Part shown: positions 5,910-36,429 of the stretch, piece by piece | How the letters are laid out: the number at the start of each line of letters is the position of its first letter | How positions within the stretch are numbered: position 1 is the stretch's first letter | Origin: Cohaesibacter marisflavi | GTDB taxonomy: Bacteria > Pseudomonadota > Alphaproteobacteria > Rhizobiales > Cohaesibacteraceae | Direction of reading: 5' to 3' | NCBI RefSeq assembly: GCF_900115225.1 | Contig: NZ_FOVR01000007.1 | Location: forward strand, 124,001 to 188,000 | DNA length: 64,000 bases | Notes under the pieces: model-generated | Database searches by the model: none | What the model was told of the DNA's origin: nothing | What the model saw: only the letters and a program-made list of their open reading frames with translations | Position numbers and translations under genes: made by a program

Positions 5910-6061
5910 TGATATCTTGTCTTTCTGGCCAGTGCTCTGGCTGCTTTTTATTCGGTGCTCAGCGCGTATGCATCAGGGCAGGCGCGATCTACCATAAACA
6001 AGGGATCCGATTTGGGCCGGACCATAGGGGATACAAGGGAAAATTTCCATAGAAAAAGCAG

Positions 6062-19938: not shown

Positions 19939-20640
19939 TCAGGCGCTTTCTCTCATACCCTCTTCGTCAGGTTCGCGCAGCACATAGCCACGGCCCCATA
20001 CGGTTTCGATATAGTTGCGCCCGCCGGTCGCTGTTGCGAGCTTTTTGCGCAGTTTACAGATGAACACGTCGATAATTTTCAACTCTGGTTCATCCATGCC
20101 ACCATATAGATGGTTCAGGAACATCTCTTTGGTGAGGGTCGTTCCCTTGCGCAAGCTGAGAAGCTCAAGCATCTGGTATTCTTTGCCTGTCAGATGAACG
20201 CGCTGGCCTTCCACTTCGACAGTCTTGGTGTCGAGGTTTACGGTCAACTCGCCAGTCGTGATAACAGACTGTGCATGGCCCTTCGAGCGTCTTACGATCG
20301 CATGAATACGGGCTACCAGCTCATCCTTGTGGAATGGCTTGGTCATATAGTCATCTGCACCGAAGCCTAGCCCACGAACCTTGTCCTCAATGCCGGCCAG
20401 ACCGGAAAGGATAAGAATCGGAGTTTTCACCTTGGAAACGCGCAGAGTACGAAGTACCTCGTAACCGCTCATATCCGGCAGGTTCAAGTCCAGTAGAATA
20501 ATGTCGTAGTCGTACAGCTTACCAAGGTCAATGCCTTCTTCACCGAGATCGGTTGTGTAGACATTGAAGCTTTCAGACTTAAGCATCAACTCGATGCTCT
20601 GTGCTGTGGCGCCGTCGTCTTCAATTAGCAAAACGCGCAT
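19939..20640 (-). CDS. ctrA: Cell-cycle response regulator CtrA
   Basis: Master transcription regulator of the alphaproteobacterial cell cycle, controlling flagellar, division and chemotaxis genes. 233 residues: receiver with [20 protein letters not shown] and phospho-acceptor Asp51 ([16 protein letters not shown]), then an OmpR-type winged helix ([36 protein letters not shown] with the frame GRGYVLREP). Sequence identity to known CtrA is evident across its length. Start at 20640 follows AGAGGA. It ends in ESA; Caulobacter CtrA ends in two alanines that matter for ClpXP turnover. Divergent from fliI. Confidence 0.97.
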
Positions 20641-20817: not shown

Positions 20818-20836
20818 CTAGGAAAATTGTTCCCAG
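20818..20836. promoter_or_regulatory. CTAGG dyad, copy 1 (one mismatch)
   Basis: CTAGG, nine bases (aaaattgtt), CCCAG: same spacing as the exact copies at 20912 and 31933, with a single mismatch in the right arm. Confidence 0.45.
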
Positions 20837-20911
20837 TACCAGACGTAAAGTTTCACATTAAGAAAAATTATTAAGTGATACTCTGTATCTGGCGTTGTCG
20901 GTTTTGACCTA

Positions 20912-20930
20912 CTAGGAAGAATTTCCCTAG
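20912..20930. promoter_or_regulatory. CTAGG dyad, copy 2 (exact)
   Basis: CTAGG, nine bases (aagaatttc), CCTAG. It lies 78 bp before the fliI start codon. The same dyad with the same 9-bp spacing is found before fliF. Confidence 0.55.
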
Positions 20931-21008
20931 CAAACCCACTAGAGATAATAATTAACCAATCGGGTAAACGAATCATTACCATGGAAAAGAATTATTAAAG
21001 GCTTGGCA

Positions 21009-22349
21009 ATGGTACAGGAACTGATCAGTAAACTGGAGGACATAAACCCGCGGCATTCCTTTGGCCGGGTTGCGTCGATTCAGGGCCATCTGGTGGAAGT
21101 GGTGGGGCCGCTCTTCGAAATGAGCGTGGGCTCCATGTTGCATATCCATGTGGATGGACGCGAGCCGATCAAATGTGAAGTGGTGGGGTTTTCCTCAGAT
21201 CGGGCTCTCTGTCTGCCCTATTCGGAGTTGGATGGGATTCGCCTGGGTAGCCGGGCAGAGTTGCATGGGCCAGCGGTCGTGCGTCCGACGAAAGGCTGGC
21301 TGGGGCGCATGATCAATGCCTTTGGCGAGCCGATTGATGGCAAGGGGCCTTTGGGGCGCGGGCATGACACCGTATCCCTGCGCGGAAAGCCTCCAGCTGC
21401 GCACAAGCGCATGCGCGTAGGTGGCCCTATGGATCTTGGGGTGCGGGCACTCAACACCTTTGTCACGCTTTGTGAGGGCCAGCGCATGGGTATCTTTGCC
21501 GGCTCGGGTGTTGGTAAGTCGGTTTTGCTCTCGATGTTGGCACGCAATGCCAGTTCCGAGGTCAATATTATCGGCCTGATCGGTGAACGTGGACGTGAGG
21601 TGCAGGAATTTGTCGAGGATGATCTGGGCGAAGAGGGCCTCAAACGCTCGATCGTTGTGGTTGCCACGTCAGATGAAATGGCGTTGATGCGCAGACAAGC
21701 GGCCTATCTGACGCTGGCTCTTTCCGAGTTTTTCCGCAAACAGGGCAAACAGGTTCTCTGCATGATGGATTCGGTGACACGCTTTGCCCAGGCACAGCGC
21801 GAAATCGGTCTGGCGGCCGGTGAACCTCCGACTTCCAAGGGATATACCCCCACAGTTTTCGCAGAATTGCCTAAATTGTTGGAAAGAGCGGGGCCGGGCG
21901 AAAAAAATGAGGGTGCCGTTACAGGTCTTTTTACTGTTTTGGTGGAAGGTGATAATCACAATGAGCCCGTAGCGGATGCTGTTCGTGGTATTCTGGATGG
22001 ACATATCGTTATGGAAAGGGCCATTGCTGAGAGGGGAAGGTACCCGGCGATAAACATTTTGAAATCTGTTTCGCGTACTCTCCCCAAGGCTGCCGATCCG
22101 GCCTTCTGGCCTGATGTGCTCAAGGCTCGGCAATTTATGGCGACCTATTCGGATATGGAAGAGTTGATCCGGTTGGGAGCCTATAAACAGGGAAGCGATC
22201 CAAATGTGGATTTGGCTATCGCTCTTCATGAACCACTGGAAACCTTCCTGACGCAAAACAAGGGGGAGGCCACCAGCATCGAAGAGGGATACCAAGCGTT
22301 ACAGTCCATTTTGGGAACGCAGACCGCAACGGGTAATTCGGGGCTTTAA
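21009..22349 (+). CDS. fliI: Flagellar export ATPase FliI
   Basis: The hexameric ATPase of the flagellar type III export apparatus. 446 residues with an N-terminal beta-barrel domain, Walker [15 protein letters not shown], the block [13 protein letters not shown], Walker B region [27 protein letters not shown] and the C-terminal helical domain. ATG at 21009 is preferred over the TTG at 21003; AAAGG lies upstream. Followed 13 bp later by fliJ. It does not belong to F-type ATP synthases because it has the GxxGE(R)GREV and AREIGLA(A)GEPPT blocks of FliI/YscN. Confidence 0.96.
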
Positions 22350-22362
22350 GGAGTATTGAGTA

Positions 22363-22776
22363 ATGAAGTCGCGTGAAAGTCTTATTCGCCTGAAACGGTT
22401 TCAAGTCGATGAGAAACGTCGTCAGGTCGGGCAGATTGAACTGATGGTCACTGAGTTCGAAGGCATGATCCGTGATCTCGATGCGCAAATTGCGTTCGAG
22501 GAGGAAAAGGCCGGCATCAGTGATATCGCTCACTTTGCTTATCCAACCTTCGCGAAAGCTGCTATTCAACGCAAGGAAAACCTTCAGGTTTCGATCGATG
22601 ACCTCAACGAACAGCTGGAACGGGCGCAGGACCAACTGCGTGAAGCTGTCGCTGAGATGAAAAAGGTCGAAATGCTTGAAGAGCGCGATCATCATCGTGA
22701 GCAGGCCGCCAGAGATCAGGCCGAGCAGGATGAACTTGATGATTTTGCGATGATTGGCCATCGCCGCGGGCACTAG
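22363..22776 (+). CDS. fliJ: Flagellar export chaperone FliJ
   Basis: A 137-residue, almost wholly coiled-coil protein (MKSRESLIRLKRFQVDEKRRQ, DDLNEQLERAQDQLREAVAEM) directly after fliI with AAGGAG before its ATG. FliJ is poorly conserved in sequence; the assignment relies on length, heptad pattern and position. In the export gate FliJ acts as the central stalk of the FliI ring. Confidence 0.85.
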   Translation: MKSRESLIRLKRFQVDEKRRQVGQIELMVTEFEGMIRDLDAQIAFEEEKAGISDIAHFAYPTFAKAAIQRKENLQVSIDDLNEQLERAQDQLREAVAEMKKVEMLEERDHHREQAARDQAEQDELDDFAMIGHRRGH

Positions 22777-22847
22777 TCCTGACGAATCTGGTTTCAGGAG
22801 CTTTGGGCCCGCTTTCTGTCGGGCTCGTGCGCTCTTGTATACTCCTT

Positions 22848-22881
22848 TTCGGATTTGCCACCATCCATTGGCAAATCCGAA
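22848..22881. terminator. Strong hairpin after fliIJ
   Basis: A perfect 13-bp stem (TTCGGATTTGCCA and its complement) around the loop ccatccat. There is no proper T run on the plus strand, so it may be a terminator or an mRNA 3'-end stabiliser. It is the only structured element in the 210 bp between fliJ and hemG. Confidence 0.6.
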
Positions 22882-22986
22882 CCCTATTTGTGACTTTGTC
22901 ACATATGGGCCTTTCGAGCGGTGGTCTCTTGCCGGGATATCGGGTAAAGCTGTTGCTGCATTGATCACATAAGCAGCAGTTTTCTA

Positions 22987-23523
22987 ATGGCAAAAATCGC
23001 TCTTTTCTTCGTTAGCCAGGATGGCCAGACGAACAAAATCGCCCACACGCTTTCCAGTCATCTTACCAGTTCAGCCCATCGGGTCACTCTGTTTGATCTC
23101 AGGGACACTGCTGTGTCAGCCTCTGATATCGAGGAGGCTGATCTGGTGATTGTGCTTGCAGCAATCCGTTATGGCTTCCATCTCAAGCCTGCGGAGCGCT
23201 TTCTTTCGACATATGGGGATAAGCTGTGCAAGAAACCGCTTGTCATGCTGTCGGTCAATCTTACGGCCCGCAAACCACATAAGCGGACCATTGAGCATAG
23301 CGTCTATTTGCAGAAATGGCTCAAGCGCCATCCGCTTGAACCGCGAATCGTGCGGGCCATCGCCGGAAAACTTGATTATCCCAGCTATCGCTTTTTTGAT
23401 CGCTTCATGATCCAGCTGATTATGCGGATCACCAAGGGGCCGACCGATCCGAGCGTGACGGTCGAGTTTACAGACTGGGATCAGGTAAAAGAGCTGGCCG
23501 AAGAGATCTCCCAGCTTGTATAA
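22987..23523 (+). CDS. hemG: Protoporphyrinogen IX oxidase, flavodoxin type (HemG)
   Basis: Oxidises protoporphyrinogen IX to protoporphyrin IX in haem synthesis with menaquinone or ubiquinone as acceptor at the inner membrane. 178 residues of flavodoxin fold: FMN loop FVSQDGQTNKIA, VIVLAAIRYGFHLKPAE, and the HemG-specific SVNLTARKPHKRT and FFDRFMIQLIMRITKGPTD, all closely matching E. coli HemG (181 residues). It probably forms a pair with the pqiA-like gene, whose start lies 6 bp behind its stop. Most alphaproteobacteria use HemJ, so this choice is somewhat notable. Confidence 0.92.
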   Translation: MAKIALFFVSQDGQTNKIAHTLSSHLTSSAHRVTLFDLRDTAVSASDIEEADLVIVLAAIRYGFHLKPAERFLSTYGDKLCKKPLVMLSVNLTARKPHKRTIEHSVYLQKWLKRHPLEPRIVRAIAGKLDYPSYRFFDRFMIQLIMRITKGPTDPSVTVEFTDWDQVKELAEEISQLV

Positions 23524-23529
23524 GGGAAT

Positions 23530-24042
23530 TTGAGTGCAGGAGCCTCGGGTGCATTTCGCGCGTTTAAAGCTTCATGTGTTCAGTTTCTTGATGTCGGGAG
23601 CCTGTTTGTGAGATCTTTCCTTCTGCCAATCCTGCTGGCGATCGCTGCCTTTTCTTTCGGCTTGGGCCTCACATTGCCGCTGGTTTCTCTCGACAAGCTG
23701 CTTTTCTTTACAGAAACCCCATCGCTCAGAACCATCATTGCAGGGCTCTGGGAGCAGGACGAGCGGATTCTGGCACTGGTGATTCTGGCCTTTTCGGTGC
23801 TTCTGCCCGCAACCAAGATCTTGCTGCTGCATGTTGCCGTTTACAGGGGCAAAAGATCCCGTTCGCTGGCCGTGCTTTCCGTGGTGAGCAAATGGTCCAT
23901 GATGGACGTGCTGCTCGTGGCCCTGGTCATCTTTTCAGCCAAGACCAGTGGCCTTGCAACGGCCTCGGCGATGCCCGGAATCTGGTTCTATGGTGCGGCC
24001 ACGCTGGCCTCTGTGATCGCCTCTGTGATGGTCCGGAAATAG
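23530..24042 (+). CDS. PqiA-like (paraquat-inducible protein A) membrane protein
   Basis: An inner-membrane protein of about 170 residues with four hydrophobic segments (LLPILLAIAAFSFGLGL, LALVILAFSVLLPATKILLLH, WSMMDVLLVALVIFSAKT, GAATLASVIASVMV), matching one half of PqiA, including the motif KWSMMDVLLVAL. PqiA-type proteins belong to lipid-transport (Mce/Pqi) systems, but single-module versions have no defined job. The start is uncertain: TTG at 23530 keeps AAGGGAAT three bases away, while GTG at 23608 is preceded by GGGAG. It lies directly behind hemG. Confidence 0.8.
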   Translation: MSAGASGAFRAFKASCVQFLDVGSLFVRSFLLPILLAIAAFSFGLGLTLPLVSLDKLLFFTETPSLRTIIAGLWEQDERILALVILAFSVLLPATKILLLHVAVYRGKRSRSLAVLSVVSKWSMMDVLLVALVIFSAKTSGLATASAMPGIWFYGAATLASVIASVMVRK

Positions 24043-24047
24043 CCGTC

Positions 24048-24081
24048 AAAAGGCCCCAATGGTTACTTTTTGCGGCCTTTT
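24048..24081. terminator. Terminator between pqiA-like gene and flhA
   Basis: AAAAGGCC and GGCCTTTT pair across an 18-base loop; A run on one side and T run on the other let it serve both converging genes. Confidence 0.5.
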
Positions 24082-24139
24082 GTTAAGTGGCCCTTTCGCA
24101 AAAAGCCGCAGCCTTGATTATCCATTTTAGCCCGCTGTG

Positions 24140-26305
24140 TCAAATTGACCCAACAGTCTTAAGACGGACCCGCGTATGGACCTCATTCTGGCTCAGAACC
24201 GTGGTGTGAGCCCGGAAGCGTTCGATGATGGAGCGGACATAGGGCCGGATGGCTGGAGAGGTTAACAGCACCGGAATTTCCCCTACCTGTGCTGCATCTT
24301 CATAGCCATCGCGCACGAGGCCTACGAACTCTTGCAATTTGCTAGGCGCCATTGCCAGCTGCTTCTCATCGCCTTCACCAATGAGCGCGTTGCTGAATTC
24401 CCGTTCCCATTTGGGGGAAAGGGTCAGGATGGGCAAATAGCCTCCGGGGGCTTGGTTGGCAGCGCAAATCTGCAAAGACAAACGGCGACGCACATGTTCG
24501 GTCATGGTCTGGATAGAGCGGGTGAAGCCCGAGGCATCGGCGACGCCTTCCAGAATTGCCGACAGATCGCGGATGGAAATCCGCTCGGCCAGCAGGGACT
24601 GAAGCACGCGCTGAATGCCGGAGATGGTGATCTGACCGGGAACGATGTCGTCGATAAGCTTTTTCTGCTCGGCAGGCAATTCGTCCAGCAGACCTTGTAC
24701 GACCGCATAGGAGAGCAGCTCGCCCATGTTGGCCTTGATGATCTCTGTCAGATGGGTGGAAATGACCGTGGCCGGATCGACTACCGTCAAGCCGAGAATC
24801 GCAGCCTCTTCACGCAAGGAGCCGTCAATCCAGACTGCAGGCAGGCCGAAGGTCGGTTCCTGCGTCTTGATGCCCGGCAGGGAGATATCGGCACCGGTCG
24901 GGTCCATGGTCATGAACTGGTTCGGATAGACGACGCCGCGCCCGACTTCGACTTCCTTGACCTTGAGGACATAATCATTGGCCTGCAGCTGGACATTGTC
25001 CATGATGCGTACCGCAGGCATGATGAAGCCCATTTCGGAGGCCAGCTGTCGACGCAGGGCTTTGATCTGGTCAGTGAGTGCCTGAGACGCATTGCCATTG
25101 GCCATGCTGATCAGGCCATAGCCGAGCTCGAGGCGTAATTCGTCCATTTTCAGCACTTCACTGATCGGCTCTTCCTTTGGAGGCTCGGCTTCCTTCAGTT
25201 CTTGCTGCTTCTTCTCGATCACTTCCTTGAGGGCCTGTTGCTTGTGCTTCTGGCTGGCCTTGTAGGAAAGGTAGCCTGCACCAACGCCAAGGGTGAGGAA
25301 GGGGATGATCGGCATGCCGGGCAGGAAGGCCATGACGACCATCACTGCCGATGACATGCCCAGCGCTTTGGGATAGCCCGAAAGCTGATTGACCAGTGCC
25401 TTGTCTGCAGACCCACTTACACCGGCCTTGGAGACCAGAATACCGGCCGCAGTGGAGACAATCAGCGCCGGAATCTGGGAAACCAGTCCGTCGCCGATGG
25501 TCAGCAGGGTGTAGGACTGGGCCGCATCGGTGAAGGCCATGTCCATCTGAGCAACGCCGATGATGATGCCGCCGAGCACGTTGATGAAGGTGATGATGAG
25601 ACCGGCGATGGCGTCACCACGCACGAACTTGCTGGCACCGTCCATGGCGCCGAAGAAGGTGCTTTCGTCAGACAGGTCCTTACGGCGCGTCTTGGCTTCT
25701 TCCTCATTGATGAGCCCTGCGGAAAGGTCCGCATCAATGGCCATCTGCTTGCCGGGCATGGCATCGAGGGTGAAACGGGCGGCGACCTCTGCGATACGGC
25801 CAGAACCCTTGGTGATAACCACGAAGTTCACCGTCACCAGAATGGCAAAGACGATGACACCGATGACAAAGTTGCCGCGGGTCACGAAACTGCCGAAGGC
25901 CTGAATGACATTGCCCGCCGCGCCGGGGCCTTCATGGCCATAGGCCAGAATGAGGCGGGTGGACGCAAGGTTCAGCGCCAGTCGCAACATCGTGGAGACC
26001 AGCAGGATCGTCGGGAAAGACGAGAATTCCAGCGGGGCCCGGATGAACAGCGAGGTCATTAGAATGAGCACGGAAAAGATGATGGAGATTGCCAGAAACA
26101 TATCCATGAAGGCAGACGGCAACGGCAGGATCATGACCACGAGAATGGTCATGACGCCGATGGCGAGCCCTAGATCACCTTGCCTGAGGAAGGTAATGAC
26201 ATTGCCCAACTGGTCGAGCGGAGACGGTCCCCGAGGGCCGTCGGCTGCCGGAGCTTCTGTGGCGCTCGCTGGTTCCGCCGTCATTGTTGCGTCTGCATCA
26301 CTCAT
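24140..26305 (-). CDS. flhA: Flagellar export gate protein FlhA
   Basis: Inner-membrane component of the flagellar type III export gate. The first ~330 of 721 residues carry the transmembrane segments and the conserved FHIPEP-like region (STMLRLALNLASTRLIL, AFGSFVTRGNFVIGVIVFAILV, DAMPGKQMAIDADLSAGLI), then a charged linker (KHKQQALKEVIEKKQQELKEAE) and the cytosolic domain with GVADASGFTRSIQTMTEHVRRRLS. The N-terminal 30 residues are an Ala/Asp/Pro-rich extension. Last gene of the minus-strand fliF operon, 78 bp after flbD. Confidence 0.96.
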   Translation of the reverse strand: MSDADATMTAEPASATEAPAADGPRGPSPLDQLGNVITFLRQGDLGLAIGVMTILVVMILPLPSAFMDMFLAISIIFSVLILMTSLFIRAPLEFSSFPTILLVSTMLRLALNLASTRLILAYGHEGPGAAGNVIQAFGSFVTRGNFVIGVIVFAILVTVNFVVITKGSGRIAEVAARFTLDAMPGKQMAIDADLSAGLINEEEAKTRRKDLSDESTFFGAMDGASKFVRGDAIAGLIITFINVLGGIIIGVAQMDMAFTDAAQSYTLLTIGDGLVSQIPALIVSTAAGILVSKAGVSGSADKALVNQLSGYPKALGMSSAVMVVMAFLPGMPIIPFLTLGVGAGYLSYKASQKHKQQALKEVIEKKQQELKEAEPPKEEPISEVLKMDELRLELGYGLISMANGNASQALTDQIKALRRQLASEMGFIMPAVRIMDNVQLQANDYVLKVKEVEVGRGVVYPNQFMTMDPTGADISLPGIKTQEPTFGLPAVWIDGSLREEAAILGLTVVDPATVISTHLTEIIKANMGELLSYAVVQGLLDELPAEQKKLIDDIVPGQITISGIQRVLQSLLAERISIRDLSAILEGVADASGFTRSIQTMTEHVRRRLSLQICAANQAPGGYLPILTLSPKWEREFSNALIGEGDEKQLAMAPSKLQEFVGLVRDGYEDAAQVGEIPVLLTSPAIRPYVRSIIERFRAHTTVLSQNEVHTRVRLKTVGSI

Positions 26306-26383
26306 TTTGAGGGTCCATCACACGAAGGATAGTCTATGCATTTATCTCTTGATTCTCGGCAATTCCAAACGGGAGTTTGATAC

Positions 26384-27757
26384 TTATCCCGCTTGTCTGG
26401 CTTCGCCCGGCTGAGGGATGTCGACACCCTCGTCGGAATATTGCTTGAGCTTGTTGCGCAGGGTGCGGATGGAGATGCCCAAAATGTTGGCCGCATGGGT
26501 GCGGTTGCCAATGCAATGATCCAGCGTATCCAGAATGAGGTCCTGCTCTACTTCAGCAACGGTGCGGCCAACAAGCGTGCGGGTCACCCCTTCTGCTGCG
26601 ATAACGGCTTGTGCTGCCGGTCCGCTGGCCATGCCGATGATGGTGTCATCCATGCGGCTGCCGTCCGGCATGCGCAGGGCTTCGGCTCCGATTTCCACGC
26701 CCGTTGCCAGAAGCACGGCGCGATGGATGGTGTTTTCCAGCTCACGCACGTTGCCCGGCCAATTGTTGGCGTGCAAATGGCGGTGGCATTCGGTGCTCAG
26801 CTTGCGCTGGGGCAGGCCGTTGGCTTGCGCATATTTGTCCGCGAAATGAGCGGCCAGCAGATCGATATCCTGCGGGCGTTCGCGCAGCGGCGGGATCTGC
26901 AGATTGATCACGTTGAGGCGGAAGAGAAGGTCTTCGCGGAAGGTGCCCGCACGTACTTCGTCTGACAGATTGCGGTTCGAGGTCGCCAGAATGCGGATGT
27001 CGACCGGTACAGGCTTGGTGCCGCCGACCCGGTCAATGACACGTTCCTGAATGGCACGCAGCAATTTTGCCTGCAGGCGGATATCCATTTCTGAAATCTC
27101 GTCCAGCAGCAGGGTGCCGCCATTTGCTTCTTCAAACTTACCGATACGACGGGCAACTGCGCCGGTGAAGGCGCCCTTTTCATGGCCGAACAGTTCGGAT
27201 TCCAGGAGGTTGTCCGGAATGGCCGCACAGTTGACAGAGACAAAAGGTTTTGTTGCCCGGCGGGAATGCTGGTGCAGGTGGCGGGCAAGAACTTCCTTAC
27301 CTGTGCCGCTCTCACCAGTGATGAGGACCGATGCGTCGCTTGGGGCAATCTGGTTGGCCAGCTGTACCACATTGTTCATGGCCGGATCACGATGGATCAG
27401 ATCGCCCTGATCCTTGGAAACAGCTTCCAGAACAGCAGCGATGATTTCCGGATCTGGTGGAAGAGGAATATATTCCTTTGCACCGGCCCGAATGGCGCTG
27501 ACTGCCGCGCGGGCATCATTTTCAACGCCGCAGGCAATCACCGGAATGGTAATATGCTCCTCTTCCAGAGACCGGATCAGGCTGGCGATGTCGAGTTTCA
27601 CGTCGATCATCATCAAATCCGCACCGCGTCCAGCGCGCAGGTGGCTTACGGCCATTTGCGCGGTTTCAGCGTGGGAAACCTGAGCTCCACGGTCCAGAGC
27701 AATTTTGGTTGCCTGGGAAAGCTGGCCATTCAGGGTACCGGTAATAAGCAGGCGCAT
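26384..27757 (-). CDS. flbD: Sigma-54-dependent flagellar regulator FlbD
   Basis: Activator of late flagellar genes. 457 residues: a degenerate receiver (MRLLITGTLNG lacks the acidic pair, while an Asp remains in LMMIDVKLD), an AAA+ domain with Walker A GESGTGKEVLARHLH, the sigma-54 contact loop GAFTGA, Walker B GGTLLLDEISEMD and R-finger region FREDLLFRLNVI, and a Fis-type helix-turn-helix (RTHAANILGISIRTLRNKLKQ-like end). Loss of the receiver pocket agrees with Caulobacter FlbD, which is tuned by FliX. Position after fliN repeats the Caulobacter fliF operon order. Its targets include, by inference, the sigma-54-type promoter before fliK. Confidence 0.95.
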   Translation of the reverse strand: MRLLITGTLNGQLSQATKIALDRGAQVSHAETAQMAVSHLRAGRGADLMMIDVKLDIASLIRSLEEEHITIPVIACGVENDARAAVSAIRAGAKEYIPLPPDPEIIAAVLEAVSKDQGDLIHRDPAMNNVVQLANQIAPSDASVLITGESGTGKEVLARHLHQHSRRATKPFVSVNCAAIPDNLLESELFGHEKGAFTGAVARRIGKFEEANGGTLLLDEISEMDIRLQAKLLRAIQERVIDRVGGTKPVPVDIRILATSNRNLSDEVRAGTFREDLLFRLNVINLQIPPLRERPQDIDLLAAHFADKYAQANGLPQRKLSTECHRHLHANNWPGNVRELENTIHRAVLLATGVEIGAEALRMPDGSRMDDTIIGMASGPAAQAVIAAEGVTRTLVGRTVAEVEQDLILDTLDHCIGNRTHAANILGISIRTLRNKLKQYSDEGVDIPQPGEARQAG

Positions 27758-27771
27758 CGTTTTCTTCCAAC

Positions 27772-28113
27772 CTATTTTTCAGATTTGATGATTTCAGTCA
27801 TGGTCACGCCGAGCTTCTCCTCGACGAGTACGACTTCGCCACGGGCAACGAGGCGTGAATTGACATAAATATCGACGGCTTCACCGACCTTGCGGTCGAG
27901 CTCAAGCACATTGCCGACATCAAGTTCGAGCAGGTCGCTCACGGGCATTTTGGCGCGCCCCAGAATGGCGGAAACCTGCACGGGAACATCGAAGACCGCT
28001 TCCAAATCGGCTGCGTTCTTCTGGTTTGCATCCTCTGCGGCGCCAGCATCGGCGATTGCCTTGGCGTTTTGTTCCTGCAAAGTGAGGCCTTCATTTTCTT
28101 CATTATCGCTCAT
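27772..28113 (-). CDS. fliN: Flagellar switch protein FliN
   Basis: C-ring protein of the flagellar switch. 113 residues with a disordered acidic N-terminus and the SpoA domain: VFDVPVQVSAILGRAKMPVSDLLELDVGNVLELDRKVGEAVDIYVN and VARGEVVLVEEKLGVTMTEI (quoted in part). Overlaps fliH by four bases and lies 14 bp before flbD, so translation is likely coupled. Confidence 0.96.
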   Translation of the reverse strand: MSDNEENEGLTLQEQNAKAIADAGAAEDANQKNAADLEAVFDVPVQVSAILGRAKMPVSDLLELDVGNVLELDRKVGEAVDIYVNSRLVARGEVVLVEEKLGVTMTEIIKSEK

Positions 28114-29078
28114 TCATTTTCTCCCTTTGCGGTGGGGGGAGCTGCATCGGTGTCAGTGTCAATGTTGATGACCTCTTGATCGAGTGCAGCCTCTGTGCTT
28201 TCAGCTGGCGAACCCGACATGGCGTCGGCGGGTTGTGTCAACTCCTGGCTATTCGGGTCCAGTTCGCTGACAGGGGCGCCTGATTGTTCGCTGTCTGTCG
28301 GGTTCGCCGCTGTCGCAGTCTCTTGGTCTTCTGCATCTGCCGATGCTTCGTTCTTCTCTTCAGCCTCTTCAGTGTCGCTTGCCGTGGCGTCCTCTGCGGG
28401 CGTGTCGTCTTCGTCCTCATCCTGCTCCGGGTCTTCGGACACATGAGAGAAATGGTCTTCGAGCAGTTGCTCGACCTGACGCACGGCAGCACGCAGGTTT
28501 CTGCCAATGCCACCATCGACCCATTCAACTTCGCAGTCACCGGGCATGACAACCGGATCGGGCAGAATGGTCAGCTTGCCGGTGAAGCCGAGTTCGGCCA
28601 TCTGCTCATCAACCGCCACCTTGATGTCGTCGGCAACAGCATCATTAAGCCGGATCGAGATGTGCGGCGTTTTGCGCAAGGGGGCTAGAATCTGGTTCAA
28701 AAGCCCCATGATTTCCCCTTTGGGTTCCTGCGCAACAAGCCGTTCGGCAAAGCGGGAGGCGAAGGCGAAAGCCAGATTGCTCGCATCGCGCTCCAGACGT
28801 TGCATCAACAGGCCGACCTCGGTGTAGACCATCGAAATTTCTTCGATGATCTGCTTTTCCAGTGCCAGATTCTGCTCGCTTGCCAGTTGCTCGCGATCTT
28901 CGCGGGCCTTGGCTTCCCCTTCGGCAAAGGCCTGGGCTTTCGCTTCGGCAAGCAGGCGCTCATGCTCGGCAACCGTGATCATCGGTTCGGGCGGAATTTC
29001 CTCGATCTGTTCCTCTACTTCCGGTTCCGGCGGGGCCGAAAAATCCAGATCGAAGAGATAACGAGCTGCCTGTGCCAT
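28110..29078 (-). CDS. fliH: Flagellar export regulator FliH (FlbE-like)
   Basis: Binds FliI and regulates the export ATPase. The 322-residue product starts AQAARYLFDLDFSAPPEPE, as alphaproteobacterial FliH/FlbE does, then has a coiled coil (HERLLAEAKAQAFAEGEAKAREDREQ), the FliH core to about residue 215 (IRLNDAVADDIK, GDCEVEWVDGGIGRNL), and a 110-residue acidic, Glu/Asp/Ser/Thr-rich tail. The tail is far longer than in enteric FliH (about 235 residues in total). ATG at 29078 follows GGAA; a start 19 codons upstream is open but less likely. Its assignment rests on sequence plus its place between fliG and fliN. Confidence 0.87.
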   Translation of the reverse strand: MAQAARYLFDLDFSAPPEPEVEEQIEEIPPEPMITVAEHERLLAEAKAQAFAEGEAKAREDREQLASEQNLALEKQIIEEISMVYTEVGLLMQRLERDASNLAFAFASRFAERLVAQEPKGEIMGLLNQILAPLRKTPHISIRLNDAVADDIKVAVDEQMAELGFTGKLTILPDPVVMPGDCEVEWVDGGIGRNLRAAVRQVEQLLEDHFSHVSEDPEQDEDEDDTPAEDATASDTEEAEEKNEASADAEDQETATAANPTDSEQSGAPVSELDPNSQELTQPADAMSGSPAESTEAALDQEVINIDTDTDAAPPTAKGENE

Positions 29079-29187
29079 TCTTTGGTTCCAATTTGCCGTT
29101 TCTATTTGTCGGCGGTTTCGGTTGTCTCTCTGCAAAGCGGGGCGCTATGCCGATCCGGTTTGCTTTATTTTAAGCGAGAAGGACGGC

Positions 29188-30249
29188 CTAGTAGACCAAC
29201 TCGTCTTCACCATTGCCTTTGGCGATCATGATTTCGCCGCGCGCGGCCAGATCCTTGGCCATGTTGACCATTGCGCCTTGCGCTTCGTCGACGTCGCGCA
29301 GACGAACAGGACCCATACCTTCCATGTCTTCCTGCAACATGGCACCAGCGCGCTGGGACATGTTGTCCATGAACAGGGTTCTGATGGTTTCGTTGGCACC
29401 CTTGAGGGCAAGGGCCAGAATGTCCTTCTCGATATTCTGCAGCAGCGACTGAACGCCGGTGGAATCCAGCTTGCTGAGATCTTCGAAGGTGAACATCAGC
29501 TGCTTGATCTTTTCCGCCGACTCGCGGTTTTCTTCTTCCAGAGCAGCCAACAGGCGTGCTTCGGTCTGGCGGTCGAAATTGTTGAAGATGTCGGCCATGA
29601 CTTCGTGTGCATCGCGGCGTTGGGTGGTCGACAGGTTCGACATGAATTCCACGCGCAGGGTCTGTTCGACTTTCTCCAGCACTTCCTTCTGCACAGCTTC
29701 CATTGACAGCATGCGGTTGATGACTTCCAGGCCGAAATCTTCCGGCATGATGGAAAGCACTTTTGCGGCATGATCGGACTTGATTTTGGACAGCACCACC
29801 GCGACGGTCTGCGGATATTCGTTCTTGAGATAGTTTGCGAGCACATTCTCCTGAACGTTGGACAATTTCTCCCACATGTTGCGACCGGCTGGACCGCGAA
29901 TTTCTTCCATGATGGCGTTCACGCGCTCTTCAGGCAGGAAGGACGCAAGCAGGCGTTCGGTTGAATCGAAGTTGCCCGTAACGGCCCCCTTGGAGGATAG
30001 GCGCGAGACGAATTCAATGATCAGATTGTCCAGCATGTTGGGCGTAATGCCGCCCAGCTTCGACATGGAAATGGACACCTGTTTGATTTCGATATCATCA
30101 AGACGACTCCAGATCGGCCCGCCGTGCTCATCTCCGAGCGCAAGCAGAATGATAGAAGCCTTTTCCGCGCCATTCAGCTCGCGTTCTTCGTGTTCTGTTG
30201 ACACGGACGCATTTGCGTTTGCCATGTTTGTTAGGGCTGTTGCCGGCAT
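29188..30249 (-). CDS. fliG: Flagellar motor switch protein FliG
   Basis: Rotor protein that interacts with the stator. 353 residues with N-terminal FliF-binding domain ([18 protein letters not shown]), the middle domain ([26 protein letters not shown]-like motif changed to EYPQ) and C-terminal charged domain with torque helix ([41 protein letters not shown]). GTGAGG precedes the ATG, which begins eight bases after the fliF stop. Confidence 0.96.
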
Positions 30250-30257
30250 TGCTTACC

Positions 30258-31895
30258 TCACGCTGCGTCTTGCAGCCAAAGACGGATAATCTTGGCAGCT
30301 TCTTCTGGGTTTTCTTTTACGAGGTCACCAACTTTGACCAGTGTGTCGGACTGCAAAGCGCCCTGGAGCTGAGCCAGCTCGATGGCTTCCATGGTCGGAT
30401 GCTTCGGATCATCTTCTCTTAGTGGCGCGGGGATCAATTCCCCTGTTTCACTTCGGATCATCGCTACCCCATCCGGGCCGATGATGACGTCCAGGTCGTC
30501 TTTTTGTTCGTCTGCTTTTTCGAACATGCGTTTCATCAGCGGACGGACGACCATGAGCAGTACGAGTAGAGTCATAATGAACATGACTCCGAGTTCCGTA
30601 AAGCGCATGTAATCATCTTTGGTAAACGCAAAGAGTTCATCGCCTGTATCGTCGAAGATCGTTTGCGGTCCTTCGGCGAATTGCAGGTTGATCACCTCAA
30701 CCCGGTCACCACGTGTCTGGTCATAGCCAACGGCAGAACGAACGAGGGTTGCGATCTGTTCAAGCTGTTCTGGGCTCCTTGGAGAATAGACCAGTTCACC
30801 ATTCTCGTTTCTCTCGTATGTGCCGTCCACGAGCACTGCGACCGACAGGCGTTCGATGCGTCCGCCCTGCACGACTTCAGTGGTCGTCTTGCGCGAAATC
30901 TCGTAGTTGATCAGCTCTTCTGTGGTGGCTGAATTTTCTTGTGTGCCAGCGGGATTTTCATCGGCATTCGCATCTGGCAATTCATTGCCGACTGTCACGC
31001 CACCAACTTCACGATCCTGGCTATTGGCATTCTCTGTGCGGGTCTGGGTGGAGCGTACGACCTGTCCGTCCGGATCATACATGTCGGAGGTTTCGGTCAC
31101 CTTGTTGAAGTTCATCTCTGCGGAGACTTCAATGCGGGCGCGGCCCTGGCCGACGACGGAGGAGACGATGTCATCCACCTGATCGCGCAGACGGCTTTCC
31201 ATCTGCACCTGACGTTCTTCCATATGAGCGGCAAGATAACCTTCGTCATTGCCGCGACCGGATGCCAAAAGGCGGCCGCGCTCGTCAACGATGGTCACGT
31301 TCTCCGGATTCAAACCTTCAACGGCCGAGCCAACCAGATGTTGGATGGCCTGAATCTGTACTGTGTTCAGATTGCCTTGCAGCTTGACGGCGATGGATGC
31401 GGTCGGTTCCTTCTGGTCGCGTTTGAAAAGCTGGTCTTTGGGAATGACCAGATGAACACGCGCTTGACGAACGTTGCGAATGGTCCGTATGGAGCGGGAA
31501 AGCTCGCCCTCAAGAGCCCGAAGATGGTTGACATTCTGCACAAAACTCGTGGTGCCCAGAGTTTCGCTTTTGTCAAAGATCTCATAGCCGACATTGCCGC
31601 CCGTTGGCAGACCGCTCTCAGCCAACTGCATGCGCAGCTTCAGGATGTCTTCCTTTGGTGCTAGGATGACAGCGCCTTCGTCGCGGATTTCATGTTTGAT
31701 ATTTTGAGCTTCGAGCAGTTTGGTGATCTGAATGGAGTCATCAAAGGACAGGTCTGTATAAAGCGGGGAAAGCGTAGGTTCGGTCACCCGCATCATGATG
31801 AATGCGAAAAATCCGATCAAGACAGCCGTCACCACGCCCATAGCGGCCAGACGGGCAGGGCCAAGCGTTTTGAAAAATTCGAATAGACCGTTCAC
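30258..31895 (-). CDS. fliF: Flagellar MS-ring protein FliF
   Basis: Forms the membrane MS-ring of the basal body. Two transmembrane segments (LAAMGVVTAVLIGFFAFIMM near the start, LGVMFIMTLLVLLMVV near residue 440) enclose the periplasmic YscJ-type domain (LSFDDSIQITKLLEAQNIKH, PKEDILKLRMQLAESGLPTGG). The cytosolic C-terminal part binds FliG. The start is set at GTG 31895 (VNGLFEFFKTLGPARL) with AAGG in front; the frame is open to a TTG at 31940, but that would run into the CTAGG dyad. First gene of fliF-fliG-fliH-fliN-flbD-flhA. Confidence 0.95.
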   Translation of the reverse strand: MNGLFEFFKTLGPARLAAMGVVTAVLIGFFAFIMMRVTEPTLSPLYTDLSFDDSIQITKLLEAQNIKHEIRDEGAVILAPKEDILKLRMQLAESGLPTGGNVGYEIFDKSETLGTTSFVQNVNHLRALEGELSRSIRTIRNVRQARVHLVIPKDQLFKRDQKEPTASIAVKLQGNLNTVQIQAIQHLVGSAVEGLNPENVTIVDERGRLLASGRGNDEGYLAAHMEERQVQMESRLRDQVDDIVSSVVGQGRARIEVSAEMNFNKVTETSDMYDPDGQVVRSTQTRTENANSQDREVGGVTVGNELPDANADENPAGTQENSATTEELINYEISRKTTTEVVQGGRIERLSVAVLVDGTYERNENGELVYSPRSPEQLEQIATLVRSAVGYDQTRGDRVEVINLQFAEGPQTIFDDTGDELFAFTKDDYMRFTELGVMFIMTLLVLLMVVRPLMKRMFEKADEQKDDLDVIIGPDGVAMIRSETGELIPAPLREDDPKHPTMEAIELAQLQGALQSDTLVKVGDLVKENPEEAAKIIRLWLQDAA

Positions 31896-31932
31896 ACCAG
31901 TTGCCTTGTCGTTCCAGAGATGTACCAAATCA

Positions 31933-31951
31933 CTAGGCAATATTTTCCTAG
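31933..31951. promoter_or_regulatory. CTAGG dyad, copy 3 (exact)
   Basis: CTAGG, nine bases (caatatttt), CCTAG, located 37 bp upstream of the fliF GTG and eight bases from a CtrA box. Same dyad and spacing as at 20912. Confidence 0.55.
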
Positions 31952-31958
31952 GAGATAG

Positions 31959-31973
31959 TTAACAACATGTTAA
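31959..31973. promoter_or_regulatory. CtrA box 1 of fliF (TTAA-N7-TTAA)
   Basis: Exact match to the known full CtrA site, TTAA, seven bases (caacatg), TTAA. Confidence 0.8.
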
Positions 31974-31981
31974 GGGTTTAG

Positions 31982-31997
31982 TTAACGAATGGTTAAC
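31982..31997. promoter_or_regulatory. CtrA box 2 of fliF (TTAA-N7-TTAAC)
   Basis: Exact match TTAA, cgaatgg, TTAAC, placed 23 bp from box 1, so both lie on nearly the same helical face. A further TTAATTAAC follows at 32015-32023. The remaining part of 31896-32255 contains no gene. Confidence 0.82.
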
Positions 31998-32255: not shown

Positions 32256-32528
32256 CTAGCGATACTGTTGAACCCGCGTCGCTCTCAAACCTGCCAGTCC
32301 ATGCTGATCGATGGAACTCTGCCAACTGAGGAATTCCTCAACTGTCAGGGTATATTTCTGGCAAGCCTCTTCGAGGCTTAGCAGGCCACCGCGAACGGCA
32401 GCAACAACTTCCGCTTTGCGCCTGATAACCCAACGCCTGGTATTGGCAGGAGGAAGATCAGCCACAGTCAAAGGACTCCCATCAGGGCCGATGACGTATT
32501 TTACTCTAGCACGTATTTGATCGGTCAT
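32256..32528 (-). CDS. sciP: CtrA inhibitor SciP (DUF1153)
   Basis: In Caulobacter SciP binds CtrA and stops it from activating target promoters in G1 cells. The 90-residue product is almost identical in pattern to the DUF1153 family: VKYVIGPDGSPLTVADLPP, TRRWVIRRKAEVVAAVRGGL, SLEEACQKYTLTVEEFLSW and GLAGLRATRVQQYR. The trihelical part includes a helix-turn-helix of the transposase-like type. It stands alone between the fliF operon and flgD, a position in the flagellar cluster seen in other alphaproteobacteria. Confidence 0.93.
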   Translation of the reverse strand: MTDQIRARVKYVIGPDGSPLTVADLPPANTRRWVIRRKAEVVAAVRGGLLSLEEACQKYTLTVEEFLSWQSSIDQHGLAGLRATRVQQYR

Positions 32529-33488: not shown

Positions 33489-36122
33489 TCAGATTACCAA
33501 ATTGAGGCCGCTCGTCGCGGCATAATTCTGTGCGGCGCGTTGCTGGGCTTGTTGAAGCGAAGAGGCAGCGCCGTCCGCTACAGGGTCGGACGAGGAGGCT
33601 CTGTCGGAATAGTAGTTCGGCTCCTGCCCCGACTGGTCCTGCCCGGCCATCTGGCCGCCCTGTTGCCCCTGATTGCCCTGATCCATCAGGGAATATTCCA
33701 GACCACCCTTATCCTGAAGGTTCAGGCCGCTCTGTTGCAGGCTGCGTTCCAGAAAGCGCTGGTCGCGGGACAGCATGTCCAGTGTCTCAGGCCGTTCGAC
33801 GATCAGATGGGCATGGGTTTTGCCATCATTGCCGATTGTCATGCGCACATCGATCTTGCCCAGATCTGCCGGATCGAGGCGGATTTCAAAGCGGGTCTCT
33901 CCCTTCTTGACGAATTTGGAGATTTCCACGGCAAGCGCATTGGCGTTGGCGAGGCTCATCTGTTGCGGCGTGTGACCTGCCGTCATCATGCCGTGCATGC
34001 CGGTAAGGCGCACCGAAGCACTGGCTGCGGCGATTGATGAACCGGCCACATCTGACGAGTTGGTCGTGTTGCTGGCCAGCACGGAGTTGTCATCCGCCAT
34101 AGCCATCATCTTTGAGAAGGCATCACCCTTTGGCGCGTTGCGGGCTGCATTCTTGGACTCTTCGGATTTTGATGCGCTGGCATCGGCCTCAGATGTGTTG
34201 CCATCCTGATTGGCCGTCTGGTTCTGAGCGTCGGCTGTGCTTGCCACACTGTTGGGCTGGTTGGCGGCAGGTGCAGCAGCATTGGCGTTGGCTGGTTGTG
34301 GAGCTCCTTCAACGCGGCCCTGAACCTTGTTGACCTGCTGGCCAGCTTCAGAGGTGGCTGCCATCTGGGGCTGCTGAGTGTTGGCCGGATCGGCAACGGC
34401 TTGTTTTGCGCTCTGTTGCGTGTCCTGCGCCCCATCATCGGACTTGGCTGCTGCAGCAAGGGCTGCGGCTTCTGCAGCAAGGGCTGCGGCTTCTGCAGTC
34501 TTGGCGGTTGCCTTGGTCTGATCGGCAGATTGGGCGTTGACGGCTTTTGCGTCTTTACCATCAGCATTGAATGTCTCGGTGGGTACTCCAGAAGCATTCT
34601 GGGCTGTCTGGGAGTCTTGCGAGGCTTTTTCCGTGACGATCTTGCCATCCGCTGACTTTATCGCCGTAGCGACCTCGGGCAATGTCTGCTCGGCATCCGT
34701 TTGAGGGGACGATGCGGCGGCTTGGCTGCTTCGGGTACCATCGATCACTGCCTGATTGGCTGCGTTTGTGCCATCGGCTTTGGCGGCTACCGAATTTGCT
34801 GCGGTGCTCGCTGACTGGTTGGCTGCGTCTTTGGCTGCGCCTGAGGTTGCAAGATTATCGTTGTTCGCCACAGCCTGGCTTTCGGCGGCGTTACCGCTCA
34901 CTGTCTGTGCTGACAGCGTCGCTGCGTCAGAGCGACCGGTACTTGCATTTGGACGAGCGGAATCTGGCGCTTCAGTCGATTGGGACTGAGCGGAAGGCTG
35001 GGGTGATACAGGCTTTTGGGCGGCATCTTCTGCGTTAGAGCCTTGGATGCCTCCTGCCACTGAAGCTTGAGAGGCTGTAGCGCTGGCCTGTTGCGCAGCA
35101 CTGGCCTCGGCGTTGGTCTGTCCTGCTTGAGCATTTGCCTGAGACTGAGAGTTGGTTTGGGCTACCTGCCCATTGCCATTCACGGCCCTTTCATAGCCGG
35201 AAGTGGTTTGCGTTGCAGGGCTTGCGCCATGGCCATCTACAGGCTTTGCCGCGCCTGCTTCCACACCCTCAAGCAACGGTGTCCGAGCGGCTTGTGTTCC
35301 ATTGGAGACCGCGCTGTTGCTTGTCGATGCTGTCTCGCCAGCCACAGACGCGGCCGTCTGTCCGGTCGTTCCTGCTGCTTCAGGGGTTGCTGCCAATCCC
35401 GCTACGCCTTGCGTCTGATTTGATACGGCTGCCTGACCTGCCATCTGACCGGCTATCTGACCTGCCATCTGACCTGTCGACTGGCTTGCCGTTTGGCCGC
35501 CAGATTGCGCGACATTCTGCTGGGCAGAAGCTGCTTCGCCCGTCATCGGGGTGGCTGAAGGACCGGCGGGGCGTGATAGGGCATCCACTCCATCCGTGCT
35601 ATTCCCAGAAGCAGAGCTGCTCGCGCCAGCTGCTGCGGCAGGGGCGCCCGAGGCAGCCAGCAGGATGTCCTGCGGAGATTGAACCTCATAGTTTGCAGCG
35701 GCGCTGCTATCGCCTGATGCTTCGGGCTTTTTGTCTGAGCTTTTGCCGCCACTGGCTGTTTCATCTACAGCAGCTGTGCGATCATCGCTGGCTGTCTTGC
35801 CGTTGGCTTTTTGCTGTGCGCTGGCAACCGCGCTCTCTTCAGCAGCTGCCTTGGCAGCGGCTTTTTGACTGGATTTGTTTTGAGCCTCGGTCGCGGCGGG
35901 AGCCTTGGAGGCGGCATTCTGGCCTGCATCGTTCGTTTGTCGGGTACTGGTCTCGCCTCTGGCTCTTTCTGCGTTCAACTGTTTCTGAAAAGAAGACAGG
36001 CCATCCGAAGAGCTGATTGAGGTGCTGCTGGATTTGCTTCCCGAATTGCTTTGCGATCCGAACGCACTTTTGGCGTTGGGAGCGGGAATCATGTTCATAA
36101 TTGAAGAATACTGGGAAGCCAT
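33489..36122 (-). CDS. fliK: Flagellar hook-length control protein FliK
   Basis: Secreted ruler that sets hook length and switches export specificity. The 877 residues are mostly Ala/Gln/Ser/Thr/Asn low complexity (residues 15 to about 690), twice the length of enteric FliK. The C-terminal FliK domain is clear: FVKKGETRFEIRLDPADLGKIDV, THAHLIVERPETLDMLSRDQ and LERSLQQSGLNLQ. Internal protein repeats include GQMAGQIAGQMAGQ near residue 220 and AEAAALA duplicated near 545. ATG at 36122 follows GTGAGG; a GTG four codons upstream is part of that ribosome site. Repeat-rich length may vary between strains and would be expected to affect hook length. Confidence 0.92.
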   Translation of the reverse strand: MASQYSSIMNMIPAPNAKSAFGSQSNSGSKSSSTSISSSDGLSSFQKQLNAERARGETSTRQTNDAGQNAASKAPAATEAQNKSSQKAAAKAAAEESAVASAQQKANGKTASDDRTAAVDETASGGKSSDKKPEASGDSSAAANYEVQSPQDILLAASGAPAAAAGASSSASGNSTDGVDALSRPAGPSATPMTGEAASAQQNVAQSGGQTASQSTGQMAGQIAGQMAGQAAVSNQTQGVAGLAATPEAAGTTGQTAASVAGETASTSNSAVSNGTQAARTPLLEGVEAGAAKPVDGHGASPATQTTSGYERAVNGNGQVAQTNSQSQANAQAGQTNAEASAAQQASATASQASVAGGIQGSNAEDAAQKPVSPQPSAQSQSTEAPDSARPNASTGRSDAATLSAQTVSGNAAESQAVANNDNLATSGAAKDAANQSASTAANSVAAKADGTNAANQAVIDGTRSSQAAASSPQTDAEQTLPEVATAIKSADGKIVTEKASQDSQTAQNASGVPTETFNADGKDAKAVNAQSADQTKATAKTAEAAALAAEAAALAAAAKSDDGAQDTQQSAKQAVADPANTQQPQMAATSEAGQQVNKVQGRVEGAPQPANANAAAPAANQPNSVASTADAQNQTANQDGNTSEADASASKSEESKNAARNAPKGDAFSKMMAMADDNSVLASNTTNSSDVAGSSIAAASASVRLTGMHGMMTAGHTPQQMSLANANALAVEISKFVKKGETRFEIRLDPADLGKIDVRMTIGNDGKTHAHLIVERPETLDMLSRDQRFLERSLQQSGLNLQDKGGLEYSLMDQGNQGQQGGQMAGQDQSGQEPNYYSDRASSSDPVADGAASSLQQAQQRAAQNYAATSGLNLVI
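34451..34498. repeat. 21-bp tandem duplication inside fliK
   Basis: A 21-bp unit (beginning ctgcagcaagggctg) occurs twice without change and then starts again with ctgcag. It encodes the repeated peptide AEAAALA in FliK. Confidence 0.85.
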
Positions 36123-36429
36123 TACCAACCTCACTACACACTGACGAAACTATGTATTCAAGAATTGTGCCAAATTGTTTCTGGGGTGAAATGAGCCCAA
36201 AATGGCTTGTTTGTGCGATTCTGAAAGGTTTTTTGGATGGGGGTGTCCCAACAGATCGGGGCTAAACTTGCCGGGTTATGGCAAAAAATGCCGGGTGGCA
36301 TCTGCAGTCTTTTCCAGTTTATACTTTTCAACAGACCAAAAGACGCTATATAAGGGCTAAAACTAGTGTCGGCAGCTCAACAAGCAGGACCAGAGCTTGC
36401 TGCCGAATGGAAAAGAGAAAGATCGATTG
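36123..36429. promoter_or_regulatory. Divergent fliK / mnmA control region
   Basis: Holds no gene. The fliK side has a sigma-54-type promoter (36157-36174, minus strand). The mnmA side has an AT-rich stretch with a possible -10 TATAAG near 36350. Nothing else evident. Confidence 0.55.
36157..36174 (-). promoter_or_regulatory. Sigma-54-type promoter of fliK-flgD
   Basis: On the minus strand TTTGGCACAATTCTTGAA gives TGGCAC, five bases, TTGaA, against the consensus TGGCAC-N5-TTGCA. The -12 element lies 35 bp before the fliK ATG, a fitting distance. FlbD in this window is the likely activator. Confidence 0.68.

Follow-up and report, generated by a model that had tools for sequence, protein, structure and literature searches.

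Putative FlbD-type dyads at the fliF promoter and in the ctrA-fliI region of Cohaesibacter marisflavi

Other activators of the NtrC family have a Fis-type helix-turn-helix and bind two-fold symmetric sites, including tandem sites about 100 bp upstream of sigma-54 promoters. The stretch of DNA analyzed here, 64,000 nucleotides of the Cohaesibacter marisflavi genome (the window; C15:124001-188000 of genome G000, 5,339,722 bases), contains dyads of the form CTAGG-N9-CCTAG, with exact copies before fliF (31933-31951) and between ctrA and fliI (20912-20930), and a copy with one mismatch, also between ctrA and fliI, at 20818-20836, all as placed by the initial annotation of this DNA. Comparison of sequences makes it very probable that these dyads are ftr-type binding sites of FlbD, an NtrC-family sigma-54 activator. 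In Caulobacter, FlbD is described as repressing fliF through ftr4 and activating later genes (PMC3930126, PMC3096577). In Caulobacter crescentus, the ftr elements likewise comprise one at fliF, where there is no sigma-54 promoter, and others close to sigma-54 promoters that serve later flagellar genes. Both organisms have FlbD, FliX, and CtrA. The Cohaesibacter sites differ from Caulobacter ftr, which is known here by description and not by sequence, in their AT-rich CTAG outer bases and in the additional pair in the ctrA-fliI region. The Fis-type helix-turn-helix, the dyad site, and tandem sites about 100 bp from a sigma-54 promoter are shared with other NtrC-family activators, but the fliF dyad overlies a CtrA-type promoter, where only repression would be expected. 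The dyads appear to be a known kind of site with one unusual placement, the fliF site being ordinary and the ctrA pair less so.

In the window, fliF (30258..31895, minus strand, TIGR00206) is preceded by the putative FlbD-type dyad of its promoter (31933..31951), which reads CTAGGAAAATATTGCCTAG in the direction of fliF, matches the pattern exactly, and has its center some 48 bp upstream of the predicted GTG start codon. A CtrA box, TTAA-N7-TTAA, identified by sequence and conserved in the genus alignment, lies just upstream (31959..31973, minus strand), and a second CtrA-type box of the same form, also identified by sequence, lies further upstream (31982..31996, minus strand). The dyad had been described as eight bases from a CtrA box, and the box does adjoin it, although the gap is 7 bases; it had also been distinguished from a CtrA site, correctly, because it contains no TTAA and the CtrA box is its neighbor. 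The layout of CtrA box, short gap, and identical 19-mer CTAGGAAAATATTGCCTAG is found before fliF in all 18 genomes of the genus compared. As is expected of an ftr element, the site belongs to a fliF promoter that has a CtrA-type box next to it and no association with sigma-54.

Another 60 genomes of the order were then compared over the 300 bp that precede fliF, which together with the window gave 61 regions from 29 families. A close match to FliF (E up to 1e-120) had been found in 70 genomes, counting that of the window itself, and the 60 were drawn from these; G006, G008 (covered with the genus), G024, G025, G026, G069, G070, G084, and G105 were left out. The strict core GGNAANNNTTNCC is present in 58 of the 61 regions, whereas first-order shuffles average 0.56 regions and never exceed 3, and the other three (G021, G029, G067) have, by eye, versions with few core changes. 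The dyad starts 5-7 bp past the last TTAAC/TTTAC-type element in 54 of the 58 regions; in some genomes, such as G112 (at -202), the strict core entered here is that of another dyad lying farther upstream. Outer bases differ between genomes, in many cases to the left and right alike (CTAGG/CCTAG, CTGGG/CCCAG, or CCGGG/CCGGG), and exact CTAGG-N9-CCTAG occurs before fliF in just five of the 61 genomes. The CTAG arms are the variable part of the motif, a local outer variant, and its core is GG-N-AA-NNN-TT-N-CC. Beyond the genus, ATAGGCAATATTTGCCTAG occupies the fliF position in Rhodopseudomonas faecalis and Rhodopseudomonas palustris. Loss of the dyad from relatives, named in the initial annotation as grounds for rejecting its proposal, is not observed at fliF in either the genus or the order; the ctrA-fliI copies are kept in the genus, but outside it they are not above chance.

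The dyads exceed chance by location and conservation, not by number. A pattern scan of the 5.34-Mb genome finds exact CTAGG-N9-CCTAG at two places, both in the window and nowhere else; the backwards control of the same pattern occurs at 19 places, and ten fixed bases would give, by arithmetic on even composition, about 5 matches. The two matches are therefore not above chance in number; the many genome hits that the initial annotation named as a further ground for rejecting its proposal are not observed. With up to two mismatches the pattern has 16 matches in the window against 13.2 expected, and the extended 19-mer with up to three mismatches occurs at 21 places in the genome against 29 for its backwards control, so that loose matches are not above chance either. 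However, each of the 18 genus genomes has at least one exact copy, and a chance origin of the dyads is ruled out by conservation. The core GGCAAWWWTTGCC was too common across 41 genomes to be followed, and has one place in the C. marisflavi genome, on contig C12. Those matches to the extended 19-mer with up to two mismatches were examined individually. One, with a single mismatch, lies at C28:338200-338218 (L024) between a LuxR-type regulator gene and a methylmalonyl-CoA-mutase-like gene, both named by eye, and no flagellar gene was seen there; another, with two mismatches, is intergenic at 6034-6052 of the window, before a translation-GTPase-like gene (by eye), and is probably due to chance.

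The proposed binding protein is encoded inside the fliF cluster. The product of flbD (26384..27757, minus strand) matches the equivalog NF050807 (NCBIfam) with 823 bits against a cut-off of 750 and has a Fis-type helix-turn-helix (PF02954) at residues 400-440; within it, positions 425-432 and 434-437 show no variation among the FlbD sequences from the order set (59 of 59). FliX, the partner of FlbD in Caulobacter, is also encoded in the genome, on C12. A class-wide search for FlbD and FliF covered 142 genomes, and fliF upstream regions were obtained from 40 of the 84 other genomes bearing FliF, one of which (G182, with a stretch of 314 bases) was dropped. Genomes were counted as FlbD-bearing if the best match scored 636-808 bits or if FlbD was split over two contigs (G234), and 16 of the 30 fetched pass the curated cut-off; on this definition the motif, at a score of 14, is found in 24 of 29 FlbD-bearing genomes, in none of seven that lack FlbD, and in one of three intermediate genomes (G175). 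A score of 13 or a strict core is found in 27 of the 29.

A score matrix built from the 58 fliF sites of the order was run on the rest of the same regions and found 37 further sites, of which 16 belong to the fliK-flgD promoter, at a distance of 2.9-4.0 kb upstream of fliF. In 13 of these 16, TGGC-N7-TTGC follows 69-113 bp on in the same direction, where the chance of such a motif on either strand within 250 bp is 12%. Conversely, among 31 strict sigma-54 motifs at fliK-flgD (29 genomes), 19 have a site with a matrix score of at least 9 at 50-130 bp upstream, and 26 have there a core with at most one mismatch, whereas in a comparison set of 75 other sigma-54-like motifs the corresponding counts are three and seven; 300 column-shuffled matrices in the same test gave a mean of 0.04 and a maximum of 2. 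Sites near the sigma-54 promoters of middle or late flagellar genes, a further feature of ftr elements, are therefore found order-wide, and are weaker in the C. marisflavi genome itself. Sites that stand at sigma-54 promoters and recur at fliF correspond to the known behavior of FlbD. It may be added that in some members of the order (for example G076, G046, G100, and G120) strong matrix matches lie about 5.3-6.8 kb after the fliF start, in the flbD-flhA part of the cluster, and on the reading adopted none of them has a motif of the sigma-54 type less than 250 bp away.

Several observations weigh against this assignment, many of them in the late genes of C. marisflavi itself. Upstream of fliK (33489..36125, minus strand, PF02120; translated from 36125, with a likely ATG at 36122) there are two dyad-like sites 20 bp apart, CCCGGCATTTTTTGCCATA (36277..36295) and CCCGGCAAGTTTAGCCCCG (36257..36275), and about 103 bp on from the second a sigma-54-like promoter, TGGCACAATTCTTGA (36158..36172), all on the minus strand. 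The sites are weak, with scores of -0.6 and 11.2, respectively, and the promoter has TTGA for TTGC; the same layout, including TGGC-N7-TTGA, in two other Cohaesibacter loci (L272 and L298) is also weak, with scores of 6.9/4.3 and 1.5/-2.1. The dyad before the divergent neighbor of fliX, a gene that is probably flgI as judged by its start, scores 4.3 and lies 114 bp before TGGCACATGCTTTGCA. In the flagellin cluster on C19, a dyad pair 31 bp apart precedes flgD in all seven genomes compared, and another, 21 bp apart and with a low second member (3.3 or less), precedes an extracytoplasmic function (ECF) sigma factor gene in six of six; no sigma-54 promoter is visible before flgD or the ECF gene. 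Both ctrA-fliI sites have one core mismatch in the genome of the window. In addition, two FlbD-bearing genomes, G271 and G276, are without the motif, and G257, which lacks FlbD, scores 13.1 with a strict core, although this core is probably inside the gene, 34 bp before the FliF model match. It should also be noted that the matrix was trained on the fliF sites of the order, so that the scores of those sites are not independent.

Some features of these loci stand apart from this question. The ECF-type sigma factor gene (C19:236627-237283 of G000; L070:11627-12283) immediately precedes three flagellin genes and has FlbD-type dyads upstream of it; its upstream region and that of flgD both contain GCCTGA on the downstream side of their dyads. 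C19 also encodes another FliF and another FliI, both distant (C19:192603-193829 and C19:200369-201550), which probably belong to a second flagellar system. Nitrogen-fixation-looking genes, judged by eye, and no flagellar link were found at C28:530001-570000, which has sigma-54-like sites.

The proposal of an operator common to the ctrA-fliI and fliF regions is supported, but it had been assigned to an unnamed regulator, and the evidence points instead to FlbD from the same cluster. That an unrelated, unnamed regulator binds the dyads and FlbD merely co-occurs with it is quite unlikely: the C19 pairs that precede late genes without a visible sigma-54 promoter would suit such a protein, and the assignment to FlbD is drawn from sequence comparison, but both the association with sigma-54 promoters and the fact that motif and FlbD occur together speak against it. 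A specific candidate is SciP, a DUF1153 helix-turn-helix protein whose gene (32256..32528, minus strand, NF051866 equivalog) adjoins fliF in the window, and the motif, as a score of 13 or a strict core, is indeed present in all 23 tested genomes that have both FlbD and SciP. The two proteins are separated in other genomes, however, and there the motif is absent from all three with SciP and without FlbD (G148, G158, G193) and present in four of the six that have FlbD without a SciP match (G176, G245, G254, G268, but not G271 or G276). In the class-wide samples the motif tracks FlbD better than SciP; it does not occur where SciP occurs irrespective of FlbD, and a SciP operator, which would also leave the sigma-54 link unexplained, is highly improbable.

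There is similarly very little likelihood that the dyad is part of a core promoter, or of a CtrA-dependent promoter, as had been suggested for the former in the initial annotation. The rigid gap of 5-7 bp to the TTAAC-type element, which places the dyad over the presumed -10 region, is the argument for it; but the motif is also found 50-130 bp upstream of sigma-54 promoters, and its two-fold symmetry is kept while the outer bases change, both of which speak against a promoter element.

The pair between ctrA (19939..20640, minus strand, NF045991 equivalog) and fliI (21003..22349, plus strand, TIGR03498) consists of two putative FlbD-type dyads 94 bp apart, CTAGGAAAATTGTTCCCAG (20818..20836) and CTAGGAAGAATTTCCCTAG (20912..20930). 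Comparison was made in 15 of the 18 genus genomes, those whose fetched stretch held the region, and in all 15 both sites are kept within one core mismatch and 94-95 bp apart, with changed outer bases and with scores of 14.1-26.6 for the first site and 10.9-19.4 for the second. The divergent arrangement of ctrA and fliI is found in all of 21 other genomes of the order, one of them (G018) from the same family, but the best score in the region is 10.0, the strict core occurs in one (G060), and a core within one mismatch occurs in five, against an average of 3.9 in shuffles; in this sample the pair is not above chance outside the genus. In G083 (L312), of another family, weak sites scoring 9.7 and 8.5 stand at a distance of 96 bp and may be either chance or a second case of the pair. 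No match was found in the plasmid records searched with the ctrA-fliI region. A conserved TTAA-rich stretch lies between the two dyads, at about 20858-20874; if this were the ctrA promoter, dyad 1 would lie downstream in the ctrA direction, in a repressor-like position, and the pair may equally serve fliI. The distances between paired sites (20-21, 31, and 94-95 bp) come close to full turns of the helix, as would suit cooperative binding on one face of the DNA. A tentative and rather doubtful extension is that FlbD in Cohaesibacter binds both dyads, some nine helical turns apart and perhaps with looping, and controls ctrA, so that a flagellar assembly checkpoint acts on the master cell-cycle regulator. 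A literature search, judged from titles and the openings of abstracts and not extending to the binding list for Caulobacter FlbD cited in PMC12421884, found no publication that deals with FlbD sites at ctrA or in Cohaesibacter.

The position, symmetry, and conservation of the dyads and their co-occurrence with FlbD are direct observations, from which we infer the following regulatory steps. CtrA would bind its box at the -35 region and turn fliF on; once the early structure is built, active FlbD would bind the dyad that follows at 5-7 bp, covering the presumed spacer and -10 region, and turn fliF off. On the tandem dyads about 100 bp upstream of the fliK-flgD sigma-54 promoter, FlbD would act as an activator. 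In Cohaesibacter, the ctrA-fliI region would have added two more sites to the regulon, spaced at 94-95 bp, most simply so that fliI, ctrA, or both answer the same signal. The motif provides a sequence rule for putative FlbD sites across a large order and beyond, and brings the steps of flagellum assembly that depend on CtrA and on FlbD together in a single arrangement of the fliF promoter. It also names Cohaesibacter as a genus in which the flagellar checkpoint may reach ctrA.

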